Of a stretch of DNA of 64,000 nucleotides, positions 56,550-61,762 are shown in pieces. The stretch's first letter is position 1. The number at the start of each line of letters is the position of its first letter. Source of the stretch: Actinocorallia populi (GTDB lineage: Bacteria; Actinomycetota; Actinomycetes; Streptosporangiales; Streptosporangiaceae); assembly GCF_002995495.1 (NCBI RefSeq), contig NZ_PVZV01000001.1:992001-1056000 (forward strand), given 5' to 3'. The notes beneath the pieces are model-generated. The model saw nothing but the letters and a program-made list of their open reading frames with translations, was not told the origin of the DNA and ran no database searches. A program made the position numbers and the translations under genes.

Positions 56550-57803
56550 ATGGGACACGCACCGGATTCCGGCTCCGCGCCTCGGCGCGTCATCGCCGTG
56601 CTCGGATCGGGCGAGACCAGCCCGACGATGGTCACCCTGCACCGTGAGCTCGTCGCCCGGTTCGGAGACGAGCCACCCGCCGCCGTCCTGCTGGAGACGC
56701 CCTACGGCTTCCAGGAGAACGTCGCCGACATCAGCGCCCGCGCCCGCTCCTACTTCGCGCGCAGCGTCGGGCTCACCGTGGAGGTCGCCACCGGGCTGCG
56801 CGGCGTACAGGACGCCGGTTCCGGAGCCGGGCTCGCCGCGCTGCGCGCCGCCGACTGGGTGTTCTCCGGGCCGGGCAGCCCCACCTACGCCCTCGCGCAC
56901 TGGCGCGGCTCGCCCGTCGCCGACACCCTGCGTGACCACGTCCGGCTGGGGCGGGCCATGCTCGTCTTCGCGTCCGCGGCCGCGTGCACGCTGGGGTCCC
57001 GCGCCCTGCCGGTCTACGAGATCTACAAGGCCGGAAGCCCGCCCCACTGGATTGCCGGCCTCGACCTGCTGGCGCCCCTCGGTCTCGACGTCGCGGTGAT
57101 CCCGCACTACGACAACGCCGAGGGCGGCACCCACGACACCCGCTACTCCTACCTGGGCGAACGGCGCCTGCGCGTCCTGGAGGCCGAACTCCCCGAGGAC
57201 GCGGCCGTCCTGGGCGTCGACGAGCACACCGCCGTCGTCATCGACCGCGACGCCGGCACCGTCGACGTCCGGGGACGCGGCGGTCTCACGATCCGCAAGC
57301 AGGGCCACAGCACGGTCATCCCCGCAGGGCGGCGCGTCTCCCTGACCGAACTCCGGGATCTCGCCAAGGACGGGGAGTCCGTCCGGCTCCACCGCGCCGA
57401 ACCCGCGCCGACGGCGCCTTCCCCACTGCCTTCGTCTCTCCCCGACCTCGTACGGGCGGCGGAAGAGCGCTTCGACGCCGCCGCCGCCCGTCATGACGCG
57501 CCGGCGATGGTCGAGGCGGTCCTCGCACTCGACAGGACCATCGCCGAATGGGCCGACGACACCGAGGAGGACGAAGGCGCGGACTGGGCCCGCACCGTCA
57601 ACCACAGTCTCATCGTCCGGCTGGGCAAGGCCGCCGAACGTCCCGGCGGCGACCTGGACGAGGCCGTGAGGCTCCTTCTCGCCGCCCGCGCGGAACTCCG
57701 CGACTCCGGCCGGTTCGCCGCCGCGGACCTGATCCGCGCCGCGCTCGCCGCCGTAAACGTCACGGTGGAGGACACTCCCGACGGAACGCGCTGGCACCGC
57801 TGA
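56550..57803 (+). CDS. Peptidase S51-like (cyanophycinase/PepE-type) protein fused to a CysRS C-terminal-like module
   Basis: A 417-residue protein in two parts. Residues about 12-290 have an S51-type fold: VIAVLGSGETSP, the SGPGSPTYAL turn, and a nucleophile-elbow-like FASAAACT with Ser142. Residues about 305-417 are helical and end in ADLIRAALAAVNVTVEDTPD followed by GTRWHR, the pattern of the C-terminal anticodon-side domain of cysteinyl-tRNA synthetase. No aminoacylation domain is present. The combination could act on cysteine- or mycothiol-linked compounds or on tRNA, but this is speculation. Confidence 0.75.
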   Translation: MGHAPDSGSAPRRVIAVLGSGETSPTMVTLHRELVARFGDEPPAAVLLETPYGFQENVADISARARSYFARSVGLTVEVATGLRGVQDAGSGAGLAALRAADWVFSGPGSPTYALAHWRGSPVADTLRDHVRLGRAMLVFASAAACTLGSRALPVYEIYKAGSPPHWIAGLDLLAPLGLDVAVIPHYDNAEGGTHDTRYSYLGERRLRVLEAELPEDAAVLGVDEHTAVVIDRDAGTVDVRGRGGLTIRKQGHSTVIPAGRRVSLTELRDLAKDGESVRLHRAEPAPTAPSPLPSSLPDLVRAAEERFDAAAARHDAPAMVEAVLALDRTIAEWADDTEEDEGADWARTVNHSLIVRLGKAAERPGGDLDEAVRLLLAARAELRDSGRFAAADLIRAALAAVNVTVEDTPDGTRWHR

Positions 57804-57912
57804 GGAGCGGGCGCGTCGAGGTCTCCGGCTCCGGGGGAACGGCCGTCCGCACCGGCGGGACCGACGAGGCCGAGGGCACCGCCTTCGAGGAGCGCTCGGC
57901 CGATCGGAGAGA

Positions 57913-57924
57913 CTTACCGTGTAC
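57913..57924. promoter_or_regulatory. Single TAC-N3-GTA operator upstream of the TetR gene
   Basis: CTTACCGTGTAC matches the CTTAC-N3-GTAY repeat found four times at 58746-58811. It lies 27 bp before the chosen TetR start at 57952, so autoregulation is likely. Confidence 0.6.
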
Positions 57925-57951
57925 GGACAGAGTGCGCCGGAGAGGATGATC

Positions 57952-58659
57952 ATGACCCCGTGGACCGACGCGGAGGAGACCGGCGAGCAGCCCCGCATCC
58001 CGCTGAGCCGGAGGCGGGTGCTGCGCGCCGCCGTGGCGATCGCCGACCGCGACGGCCTCCCTTCGCTCACGATGCGCCGCCTCGCCCAGGAGCTCGGGGT
58101 CGAGGCGATGTCGCTGTACCACCACGTCGCCAACAAGGAGGCGGTCCTCGACGGCGTCATCGAGGTGGTCCTCGGTGAGATCCTCGAAGCGGTGGACAAG
58201 GTCGAGGCGCCGTCACCCGAGGAGGACTGGCGAGCGGCGCTGCGCGCGCGGATCCTCGCGGCCCGCGAGGTCTTCCTGCGCCACCGATGGGCTCCACGGG
58301 TACTGGAGGCGCGCACCACCACGAGCCCGGCGGTCATCGGCTACTACGACGGAGTGGTGGGGATCCTCCGGGCGGGCGGGTTCTCCTTCGACCTGGCGCA
58401 CCGCGCGCTGCACGTCCTGGGCAGCCGCGCCCTCGGCTTCACCCAGGAACTGTTCGACCCCGACGGCGCCGAGACCGCGGACTCCGCCGCGACGATGGAG
58501 CAGATGGCCGACCGGTTCCCGCACATCGTGGGGATGATGGCGGACGCCGTCCACGACGATCCGGACGGGACCCTGGGCTTCTGCGACGACCAGTTCGAGT
58601 TCGAGTTCGGGCTCGACCTGATCCTCGAGGGACTGGAACGGCGCCGGACGGCCGCATGA
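57952..58659 (+). CDS. TetR-family regulator (TetR_C-type)
   Basis: A 235-residue protein with a helix-turn-helix (RRVLRAAVAIADRDG, then SLTMRRLAQELGVEAMSLYHH) and a long C-terminal domain of the tetracycline-repressor-like TetR_C type. The ATG at 57952 is favoured because GAGAGG ends 6 bp before it; the GTG at 57919 falls inside the operator copy. It very likely binds the five CTTAC-N3-GTA sites and controls the quinone-reductase-like gene at 58850. Confidence 0.88.
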   Translation: MTPWTDAEETGEQPRIPLSRRRVLRAAVAIADRDGLPSLTMRRLAQELGVEAMSLYHHVANKEAVLDGVIEVVLGEILEAVDKVEAPSPEEDWRAALRARILAAREVFLRHRWAPRVLEARTTTSPAVIGYYDGVVGILRAGGFSFDLAHRALHVLGSRALGFTQELFDPDGAETADSAATMEQMADRFPHIVGMMADAVHDDPDGTLGFCDDQFEFEFGLDLILEGLERRRTAA

Positions 58660-58745
58660 GGCCGTCCGGGCACGCCTGAACCCGCCGGACGTGTCGTTAC
58701 TTTTCGTCATTCGACGAGTCGATTTCCGTGACGCCCCTTGACTGA

Positions 58746-58811
58746 CTTACGCCGTACTATAACCTTACTGCGTATGAGCGACTTACGTTGTATGGAAACC
58801 TTACGCCGTAC
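58746..58811. repeat. Four tandem operator repeats at exact 18-bp spacing
   Basis: Near-palindromic 12-mers start at 58746 (CTTACGCCGTAC), 58764 (CTTACTGCGTAT), 58782 (CTTACGTTGTAT) and 58800 (CTTACGCCGTAC). Each contains TAC-N3-GTA and the 6-bp gaps differ in sequence. They fill the promoter region of the gene at 58850: TTGACT at 58738 and TATAAC at 58758 flank the first copy. They are read as a multi-site TetR operator. Confidence 0.85.
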
Positions 58812-58849
58812 GACGGAGAGTCGGACCTCCGAGGGAAGGAAATCCCCCC

Positions 58850-59827
58850 ATGAAAGCCTGGACCTGGGAGCGTTACGGCCCGCCCGACGTCCTGACCCTC
58901 CGGGACGTCGACGAGCCCGGCATCGCCCGCGACGAGGTGCTGGTGCGCGTGCGAGCGGCCTCCGTCAACCCCTACGACTGGCGCCACCTGCGGGCCGACC
59001 CGCACCTGGTGCGGCTGAGCATCGGCCTGCGGCGGCCGAAGGCCGGCCTGGTCCTCGGTGCCGACCTGGCCGGCGTCGTGGAACGGGTGGGCGAAGAGGT
59101 GACCGGGCTCCGTCCCGGAGACGAGGTCTTCGGAGAGGTGCCGCTGGGCGCGTTCGCCGAGGCCGTCGCCGTCTCGCCGAGAACGCTGGCCGTCAAACCC
59201 GCCGGCCTCTCCTTCGAACGGGCGGCCGCCGTGTCGATGGCCGCGCACACCGCGTTGCAGGGGCTGCGGGACGAGGGGAGGATCGCACCGGGACAGCGCG
59301 TCCTCATCAACGGGGCCTCCGGCGGAATCGGCACGTTCGCCGTCCAACTCGCCAAGGTGCTCGGCGCCGAGGTCACCGGCGTCTGCAGCACCCGCAACCT
59401 CGAACTGGTCAGGTCCCTGGGCGCCGACGACGTCGTGGACTACACCGGCGAGGACTTCACAGAACGGGATGAGCGGTACGACCTGCTCATGGACATCGTG
59501 GGCGACCGGTCGCTGGCGGGGCTCCGGCGCGTCCTGACCCCGCGGGGAACGCTCGTGATCGTCGGCGGCATCGCCTCCACCAGCCGGCTGCTCGGCCCCG
59601 CGGCGCAGATGCTCCGCGGGGCCCTCGCCTCCCGCTTCGTCGGCCACCGCATCGCCTCCGTCGCCTGGAAGCCCAACGCCGGAGACCTGCGGTTCCTGGC
59701 GGAACTCATGGAGGAGGGGCGGATCACGCCCGTCATCGACCGGACCTACCCCTTCACCGAGCTCCCCGAGGCGCTGCGCCACCTCGAACGGCGACACGCA
59801 CGCGGCAAGATCGCCATCACCTTCTGA
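58850..59827 (+). CDS. Medium-chain NADPH:quinone reductase-like oxidoreductase
   Basis: A 325-residue zinc-free MDR protein. The N-terminal RAASVNPYDWRHLR, the AGVVERVGEEVTGLRPGDEVFG segment and the nucleotide-binding GASGGIGTFAVQLAK are typical of quinone-oxidoreductase-like enzymes, which reduce quinones or enones with NADPH. GAAGGAAA precedes the ATG. The four-repeat operator upstream indicates tight control by the TetR at 57952, probably in response to an electrophile. Confidence 0.9.
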   Translation: MKAWTWERYGPPDVLTLRDVDEPGIARDEVLVRVRAASVNPYDWRHLRADPHLVRLSIGLRRPKAGLVLGADLAGVVERVGEEVTGLRPGDEVFGEVPLGAFAEAVAVSPRTLAVKPAGLSFERAAAVSMAAHTALQGLRDEGRIAPGQRVLINGASGGIGTFAVQLAKVLGAEVTGVCSTRNLELVRSLGADDVVDYTGEDFTERDERYDLLMDIVGDRSLAGLRRVLTPRGTLVIVGGIASTSRLLGPAAQMLRGALASRFVGHRIASVAWKPNAGDLRFLAELMEEGRITPVIDRTYPFTELPEALRHLERRHARGKIAITF

Positions 59828-59953
59828 CCGACTCCGCACGGGCGTCCTGCGCCGCCCGGAGGCGTCGTTTACCCGCCGATGGCGTTGTGCCGGAACGATG
59901 CCGGAAATCGGCAGGGAGACGCACTGATCGTCGGATCGTTTCGAGGAGATGCC

Positions 59954-61762
59954 GTGGGTGTCATGCCGTCGCCGGGGGACCGGACCGATTTCGAGAACGC
60001 GGACAAGGGGTTCGTGGGGACCACGTCCCAGGAGGCGATCACGGACGCGGAGGGACGGGTGGTCTGGGATTTCGGGGCTTACGCCTTCCTGGACGGGCCG
60101 TGTCCCGAGACGGCGAACCCGAGCCTGTGGCGGCAGTCCCAGCTCACCGCCAGGCACGGCCTCTACCAGGTGGCCGCGGGGGTCTACCAGGTGCGCGGGT
60201 TCGACCTGTCGAACGTCTCCTTCATCGAGGGCGAGCAGGGCGTCATCGTCATCGACCCGCTCCTGTCCACCGAGTGCGCGGCGGCCGCGGTCGCGCTCTA
60301 CCGGGAGCATCGCGGAGACCGCCCGGTGAGCGCGGTGGTCTACACCCACTCCCATGCCGACCATTTCGGCGGGGTCCGGGGGGTGGTCCCCGAAGGAGCG
60401 GACATCCCGGTCATCGCCCCCGCCGGGTTCCTGGAGCACGCGGTCTCGGAGAACGTGTACGCCGGTACCGCCATGAACCGGCGGTCTCTTTACATGTACG
60501 GCGCCGCGCTGCCCAAGAGCGCCGTCGGCCAGATCGGCGCGGGCCTCGGCCAGACCACCTCCACGGGGACGATCTCGCTGATCGAGCCCACCCTGTCGAT
60601 CACCGAGACCGGCCAGGAGGAGGTCGTCGACGGCGTGCGCATCGTCTTCCAGCTCACCCCGGGCACCGAGGCGCCGGCCGAGATGAACTTCCACCTGCCC
60701 GAGCATCGCGTGCTGTGCATGGCGGAGAACGCCACCCACAACCTGCACAACGTGCTGACGCTGCGCGGCGCGCTGGTGCGCGACCCGCGGGTGTGGGCGC
60801 GCTACCTCACCGAGGCGATCGAGATGTTCACCGCCGACTCCGACGTCCTGTTCGCCTCGCACCACTGGCCGACCTGGGGCACGCGGGAGCTCACCGCCTT
60901 CCTGTCCCAGCAGCGCGACCTGTACGCCTACCTGCACGACCAGACGCTGCGGCTGCTCAACCGCGGCTGCACCGGCACCGAGATCGCCGAGATGATCGAG
61001 CTCCCGCCGGAGCTGGAGCGCGCCTGGCACGCCCGCGGCTACTACGGGTCGGTGTCCCACAACGTCAAGGCGATCTACCAGCGGTACATGGGCTGGTTCG
61101 ACGGCAACCCCGCCCACCTGTGGGAGCTGCCCCCCGAGGAGTCGGCGCGCAGGCACGTGGAGCTGATGGGCGGCGCGCAGGCCGTCCTGTCCAAGGCCGA
61201 GGAGGCCTTCGAGGCGGGGGAGTGGCGGTGGGCCGCCCAGATCCTCAACTACGCCGTGTTCGCCGATCCGTCCCACACCGCGGCCAGGGAGCTGCTGGCG
61301 AAGGTCTACGACAGGCTCGGCCAGGGCAGCGAGAACGGCACATGGCGGAACTTCTACCTGCAGGGCGCCGCCGAGCTGCGCGGGAACAAGCCGCAGAACA
61401 CCCTCGACACCACCAGCCCGGACGTCGTCCGCGCCCTGAGCGTCGAGCAGGTCTTCGACTCCCTGGCCGTCCGCGTCGACGGCCCCCGCGCCTGGGGGAC
61501 CCGCCTGAGCATCGACTGGAACCTCACCGACCTCAAGGAGGAGATCAGGACCAGCCTGGCCAACGGCGTCCTCACCCAGAGCGGGACGCACGACGGTACC
61601 CCGGCGGACCTCACGGTGACCCTGACCAAGCCGCAACTGCTCGGACTGCTCGCCACCGGCGGCCTGGACGGCGCCCAGACCTCCGGGGACCCCCAGGCGC
61701 TTACCACGCTGATGGGACTCCTCGATGCGGGCGACCGCGATTTCGACATCGTCACCCCGTGA
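59954..61762 (+). CDS. Alkyl sulfatase, SdsA1/BDS1-type metallo-beta-lactamase-fold enzyme
   Basis: From the GTG at 59954 (GAGGAG just upstream) the product is 602 residues. The zinc site begins with H132-x-H134-A-D136-H137 in YTHSHADHFGG. A dimerisation domain (about 375-500) and a C-terminal SCP2-like domain (about 490-600) follow, as in SdsA1. The family hydrolyses primary or secondary alkyl sulfates such as SDS, releasing alcohol. There is no signal peptide. The alcohol and aldehyde produced could feed nearby dehydrogenases, though no operon is formed. Confidence 0.92.
   Translation: MGVMPSPGDRTDFENADKGFVGTTSQEAITDAEGRVVWDFGAYAFLDGPCPETANPSLWRQSQLTARHGLYQVAAGVYQVRGFDLSNVSFIEGEQGVIVIDPLLSTECAAAAVALYREHRGDRPVSAVVYTHSHADHFGGVRGVVPEGADIPVIAPAGFLEHAVSENVYAGTAMNRRSLYMYGAALPKSAVGQIGAGLGQTTSTGTISLIEPTLSITETGQEEVVDGVRIVFQLTPGTEAPAEMNFHLPEHRVLCMAENATHNLHNVLTLRGALVRDPRVWARYLTEAIEMFTADSDVLFASHHWPTWGTRELTAFLSQQRDLYAYLHDQTLRLLNRGCTGTEIAEMIELPPELERAWHARGYYGSVSHNVKAIYQRYMGWFDGNPAHLWELPPEESARRHVELMGGAQAVLSKAEEAFEAGEWRWAAQILNYAVFADPSHTAARELLAKVYDRLGQGSENGTWRNFYLQGAAELRGNKPQNTLDTTSPDVVRALSVEQVFDSLAVRVDGPRAWGTRLSIDWNLTDLKEEIRTSLANGVLTQSGTHDGTPADLTVTLTKPQLLGLLATGGLDGAQTSGDPQALTTLMGLLDAGDRDFDIVTP

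Follow-up and report, generated by a model that had tools for sequence, protein, structure and literature searches.

The window, which is the whole 64,000-nucleotide stretch of DNA analysed here, carries four dyad-like sites at an exact 18-bp step in front of a quinone-oxidoreductase-like gene, and a similar single site in front of the TetR-family gene that precedes it. The locus raises the question of which protein binds these sites, and what their even spacing serves. The reading favoured here, with a probability of about 0.87, is that the four sites are operators of the upstream TetR_C_1 regulator built into the oxidoreductase promoter, where the bound repressor would exclude RNA polymerase until induced.

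The site array and its flanking genes

Exact matches to CTTACNNNGTAY on both strands of the window are confined to positions 57913–57924, 58746–58757, 58764–58775, 58782–58793 and 58800–58811. The first-pass annotation had placed four CTTAC-N3-GTAY sites starting at 58746, 58764, 58782 and 58800 and a fifth at 57913, and these positions are confirmed; 100 dinucleotide shuffles of the window gave a mean of 0.00 matches. The whole genome (8,251,641 bases, 25 contigs) contains the pattern six times, of which five are the window sites. A single site is unremarkable by number, because the reversed pattern gives 8 + 10 = 18 matches in the genome; the clustering and the fixed step stand out beyond chance. 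TTACN3GTA pairs 2–20 bp apart occur three times in the genome, all in this array, and once for the reversed control. The fully symmetric CTTACN3GTAAG is absent from the whole genome. The sites are best read as putative 13-bp dyads with a free central base, and neighbouring dyads at the 18-bp step do not overlap.

The regulator P0001 (57952–58659, forward strand, 235 amino acids) scores above the Pfam cut-offs for both TetR_N (1.2e-07, 31.8 bits versus 24) and TetR_C_1 (1.4e-18, 67.6 bits versus 21). The closest solved chains by sequence are 3bqy, a putative TetR regulator, followed by ActR (2opt). Identification as the tetracycline repressor TetR proper (NCBIfam NF010319) was rejected at 80.5 bits against an equivalog cut-off of 265. 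The ATG at 57952 is preferred as the start codon over the GTG at 57919 given in the open reading frame list because GGAGAGG stands 6 nt ahead of it. The fifth site, CTTACCGTGTACG (57913–57925, forward strand), ends 27 nt before this ATG and overlaps the alternative GTG. Palindromic sites are found both at the regulator's own gene and at the neighbouring one, as in TetR-type regulator loci, with imperfect palindromy in the window: the array sites match a 12-position symmetric consensus at 10–11 positions and the regulator-gene site at 9. The 120 bp before the regulator contain a CTTACN3GTA site in 34 of 55 co-directional loci and none in 21, with the duplicates L002, L003 and L004 left out of the count; 20 of the 34 carry CTTACCGTGTACGG, as in the window. 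That the regulator gene has one site only, of lower symmetry, suggests weaker autoregulation.

The presumed target gene encodes P0002, an MDR oxidoreductase of 325 amino acids (58850–59827, forward strand, start codon at 58850) with the Pfam families ADH_N, ADH_zinc_N and ADH_zinc_N_2. Its solved relatives include quinone oxidoreductases and its best NCBIfam model is quinone_pig3 (3.4e-48, under the cut-off of that model); strict identity as a PIG3-type quinone oxidoreductase (TIGR02824) was set aside at 164.3 bits against 296.8. Directly downstream, at 59879–61762, lies a gene for an alkyl-sulfatase-like protein of the metallo-beta-lactamase fold. At 56550–57803 the window encodes a 417-amino acid protein that combines a C-terminal CysS_C domain with a weak cyanophycinase match, an odd fusion.

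Register of the array with the predicted promoter

Promoters of the actinobacterial primary sigma factor follow the consensus TTGAC and then TANNNT at 16–18 bp, and the array region contains a candidate of this form, TTGACT-16-TAACCT, on the forward strand. Its −35 element TTGACT occupies 58738–58743. The −10 element TAACCT (58760–58765) lies in the linker between the first two sites, its last two bases being the first two of operator 2, and the transcription start point is inferred at about 58772. Putative operator 1 (58746–58758) falls inside the −35/−10 spacer, putative operator 2 (58764–58776) over the 3′ end of the −10 element and the inferred start point, and putative operators 3 (58782–58794) and 4 (58800–58812) in the inferred transcribed leader. 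The array and this predicted promoter are interwoven, a feature that the first-pass annotation missed. A generic sigma-70 scan based on TATAAT found no promoter in 57800–59900, and a terminator scan of the same interval found no terminator.

The register recurs among relatives. All but one of the 56 family genomes have TTGAC 2–4 nt ahead of the first site, and TANNNT follows at a spacer of 16–18 in 50 of those 55, as compared with 4 of 46 when the same frame is shifted one repeat on. Counting against the operator–promoter reading are the five genomes that lack TANNNT and the one that lacks TTGAC. A taxonomically wider set of 67 loci, which overlaps the 56 genomes and from which L002, L003 and L004 were dropped as duplicates, has TTGAC exactly 3 nt before a site in 52 loci and lacks it in 15; TANNNT is in register in 46 of the 52 and, one repeat on, in 4 of 40. 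Where the first step is 19 or 23–25 bp and TTGAC is present, the −10 element still fits the linker in nearly every case, the exception being L087. With the frames assigned by eye, the oxidoreductase start codon likely lies inside an operator in L213, where GTATG closes operator 3, and in L214, where operator 2 has an in-frame ATG at its end.

The overlap of the sites with the spacer, the −10 element and the inferred start point makes occlusion of the promoter the best reading, and a likely mode of repression. With a dimer on operator 1 the −35/−10 spacer would be occupied, and one on operator 2 would hide the start point together with the end of the −10 element; the early transcribed DNA would be covered at operators 3 and 4. 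Jointly the dimers would keep RNA polymerase off the promoter until an inducer removes the repressor; this inducer may be a quinone or another electrophile on which the oxidoreductase acts. The repressor probably holds its own gene too through one weaker site. Such a layout probably makes a tightly shut switch; binding, occupancy, repression, induction and any cooperativity are here predicted from sequence.

The repeats could instead act in the RNA leader, as a hairpin or attenuator. The inferred leader of the window (58772–58849), the one leader folded, does so at z = −2.69 with sites 3 and 4 paired, and 2 of 200 shuffles fold as well. However, repeated palindromes would be expected to pair, site 1 is upstream of the inferred start point, a similar single site precedes the regulator, and the type of site goes with the recognition helix of the regulator, as described below. 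A role in RNA in place of DNA operators is thus judged very unlikely.

Conservation of the array and its match to the regulator

Relatives for comparison came from a protein scan of contigs, from which the best 80 of 119 loci were taken, and from a second search of 120 related genomes, which gave matches in 42 and yielded 30 loci. A census of 341 family genomes with the strict DNA pattern TTGAC-N3-CTTAC-N3-GTA-N7-CTTAC-N3-GTA found it in 43, once each, and its reversed control in 0 of 341. The regulator lies within the fetched stretch in 41 of 42 strict-pattern loci, and so does the oxidoreductase, with only G050 lacking it; the 43rd match (G068, the same as L002) has both genes. The sole locus without the regulator, G333, has its array 22 bp from a contig end, and its regulator sits on another contig, at the same coordinates as in the L046 record, which ends 35 bp after the regulator. 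Conversely, at E 1e-65 or better a search with the regulator protein found matches in 67 of the 341 genomes. Identity is at least 60% in 56 of these (two matching over part of the protein and one with an internal stop), and all 43 strict-pattern genomes fall within these 56. All 56 carry sites matching at least 9 of 12 positions, three in 51 genomes and four in five, where a fixed stretch was scanned for G050 instead of the oxidoreductase upstream; none of 1120 mononucleotide-shuffled upstream regions had two or more sites. The association of array and regulator holds in both directions, in counts of related genomes that are not independent events.

Neither the repeats nor their spacing are lost in close relatives: the 56 genomes all keep three or four sites, with a first step of 18 bp in 52 genomes and of 19 bp in the other four. 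The fourth copy is present in G000, G068, G288, G356 and G357, and its CTTAC arm is intact only in the window and G068, not in G288, G356 and G357. Within the same genus, the G002 regulator is only 43% identical, and G001 retains the 18/18 register with degenerate sites. Thirty-five loci have a regulator at least 70% identical, and 32 of them, the window included, are alignable on the −35 element. The alignment was anchored on TTGAC and the first TTA with a site threshold of 8/12; it drops L002, L003 and L004 as duplicates of L039, L038 and L044, and omits L057 as well as L006 and L046, whose stretches lack the oxidoreductase. Of the aligned loci, 29 have three sites at exactly 18/18; two, the window and that of Thermomonospora echinospora, have four; and L069 has another arrangement. 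The 18/18 spacing is also seen in L057 and in the G038 locus, and L046 stops at the contig edge. Across the 32 loci the dyad arms are strongly conserved with sharp edges and the centres are free (0.04–0.38 bits), conservation drops outside the block and at each dyad centre, and the leader length ranges from 11 to 170 nt.

Several relatives depart from this arrangement. L007/L150 (G050) keeps the regulator and a three-site array, with only a short oxidoreductase-like start and a different, convergent gene behind it. Outside the 67 loci of the wider set, sixteen others match the oxidoreductase but lack a site within 300 bp of that gene, which counts against the operator reading; several of them have variant operators, and in L079 a gene intervenes. 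This gene (L079:2397-2894, between array and oxidoreductase) has a weak match to F420H(2)-dependent quinone reductase (24.7 bits versus a cut-off of 22), which hints at a regulon related to quinones. The sites keep their place beside the regulator when the next gene is exchanged, in favour of the operator reading: the pair precedes a DUF4386 gene in L010 and, in L074 from Blastococcus, a small protein reaching no Pfam family. Decay was set aside as an account of the atypical middle sites of some relatives since several share the form CTTACNNGATAAG, which may be an alternative half-site.

Residues of the recognition helix contact the bases in TetR, and the sites were compared with the helix class in 110 loci (three duplicates included), counting sites within 400 bp of the regulator. 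All eight loci with a [KT]PM helix (L015, L017, L104, L105, L106, L108, L109 and L110) have TACTTAGTA or TACTAAGTA, as against 0 of the 102 others, and both loci with a VPMALY helix (L011 and L012) have GTGTACGNCGTACAC. With the E[AP]MS helix, a CTTACGNCGTAAG-like site matching at least 10 of 12 positions is present in 82 of 97 loci: 77 of 83 where the regulator is at least 50% identical, and 5 of 14 below. The helix alone does not predict the site, as 15 of these 97 loci, nine of them below 50% identity, have no 10/12 site near the regulator; near misses include weak sites (L080) and arrays outside the stretch (L006 and L095). The predicted operator core changes along with the recognition-helix class. 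It is very probable that the adjacent TetR_C_1 regulator uses the sites as its operators. That another protein binds them and the TetR neighbour is incidental is extremely unlikely in view of the two-way association of array and regulator and of the helix–operator covariation. The same linkage, conservation and covariation support the first-pass proposal of a TetR operator array before the oxidoreductase with one site at the TetR gene.

Spacing, copy number and known systems

The spacings in the 56 genomes are 18/18 in 41, 18/14 in six, 18/18/18 in five and 19/14 in four, so that 46 genomes have a second step of 18 bp and 10 have one of 14 bp. At least two sites are present in 64 of the 67 loci of the wider set; of these, 46 have a first step of 18 bp and the other 18 one of 13, 14, 19, 23, 24, 25 or, in single cases, 33, 34 or 37 bp, and the second step, available for 48 loci, is 18 bp in 36, 14 in eight, 13 in two and 20 in two. 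With 10.5 bp per turn assumed, 18 bp rotates the next site by −103 degrees, which bears out the earlier statement that neighbours lie on different helix faces, and 14 bp by +120 degrees.

It had also been suggested that the 18-bp step lets the repressor coat the DNA cooperatively for a steep response. Adjacent dimers touching at 18 bp would fit the constancy of every step in 46 of 56 genomes while leader length varies, and the individual imperfection of the window sites; cooperative TetR-family dimer pairs are known in CprB and QacR (PMC4150764), the CprB dimers having no mutual contacts in the passage available. The first step, however, is explained without such contacts. Promoter geometry would suffice for the 18 bp between sites 1 and 2, a step attributed to the promoter because the −10 element fits the linker also at steps of 19 and 23–25 bp; it would be set by fitting the −10 into the linker. 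The second step, being 14 bp in 10 of 56 genomes, with steps of 13, 14, 19, 20 and 23–25 bp and more in other lineages, implies no universal dimer–dimer contact, and rotations from −103 to +137 degrees leave no single rigid contact to be conserved. As an explanation of the 18-bp step, cooperative coating is not supported, and an array that serves chiefly a steep response through touching dimers is possible but doubtful. The later, equal steps probably go back to an 18-bp unit that was duplicated in tandem and stayed in register. Slippage of this kind could also have been neutral, leaving extra copies of little function: copy number varies, and linkers 1 and 2 are alike in close relatives, where GATAAC and GACAAC are their commonest bases, and less alike in the window, with TATAAC and GAGCGA. 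Yet the first three sites are all kept in 31 of 32 aligned loci at the 8/12 threshold, two of them with a fourth, and the arms are conserved in every copy while the dyad centres drift, which makes purely neutral expansion improbable.

TetR-family regulators with several sites are already known from the source passages available. Tn10 TetR has tandem operators O1 and O2, 15-bp palindromes at the target and regulator promoters (PMC3511530); it shares with this locus the palindromic operators at both promoters and a TetR-type regulator (80.5 bits for P0001), and differs in having two operators against four plus one here, another operator sequence and a pump as target. For ActR of Streptomyces coelicolor, the second-best solved relative of P0001, three palindromes and three gel shifts are reported (PMC3511530), the palindromes being weaker and of other sequence in the passage available. 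The TetR-like FasR of Mycobacterium tuberculosis likewise binds three inverted repeats in one promoter region (PMC7382501), but is described there as an activator, of fas-acpS. QacR and CprB place more than one dimer cooperatively on each regulatory site (PMC4150764); according to the passage available, a single 22-bp site takes two CprB dimers, one on each side, whereas the dyads here are separate and 18 bp apart. EthR, by the title of a paper, octamerizes cooperatively on its operator. CssR was set aside as a close system on its operator TAA(G)TGN13CA(G)TTA, as given in the available part of the source (PMC8176726). The exact operator 12-mers were found in one unrelated paper only, and the matches listed in a search that left subscription papers outside included none on the motif or regulon. 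A conserved ladder of three to four copies with constant step and fixed promoter register appears in none of the passages on the compared systems.

A broader proposal, whose odds we place a little short of even, is that these loci form a natural promoter-locked operator ladder built on a fixed −35/site-1/−10 core: across actinobacteria the 13-bp TetR-type dyad would differ in copy number (2–4), in step (13–25 bp) and in the symmetry of its arms, with the recognition helix changing to match. In the literature compared, TetR-type promoters that carry three or more operators are treated case by case. Here a single regulator–target pair provides natural variants by the dozen, in promoter register and with spacing, copy number and recognition helix known; if the proposal is true, they would form an evolutionary series, already at hand, in which to measure the effect of operator number and phase on leak and steepness. 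The variants make testable why a repressor needs three or four sites and whether protein contacts or the promoter set the spacing, and the layout suggests a compact, tight switch for actinobacterial expression work.

A loose pair pattern matched 114 of 341 family genomes and was rejected as evidence, its reversed control also giving many matches. Of 29 loci taken from it (L114–L142), 26 have a TetR-like match and L115, L118 and L140 have none; seven matches are orthologue-like (63–85%), L135 is at 53%, L124 covers 34 residues only and 17 others are at 34–43%. By these loci, the dyad seems to be in wide use in this TetR subfamily. A 26-bp head-to-tail repeat containing TTACGGCGTA, at G265:C1:205390-205477, is apparently unrelated to this system.
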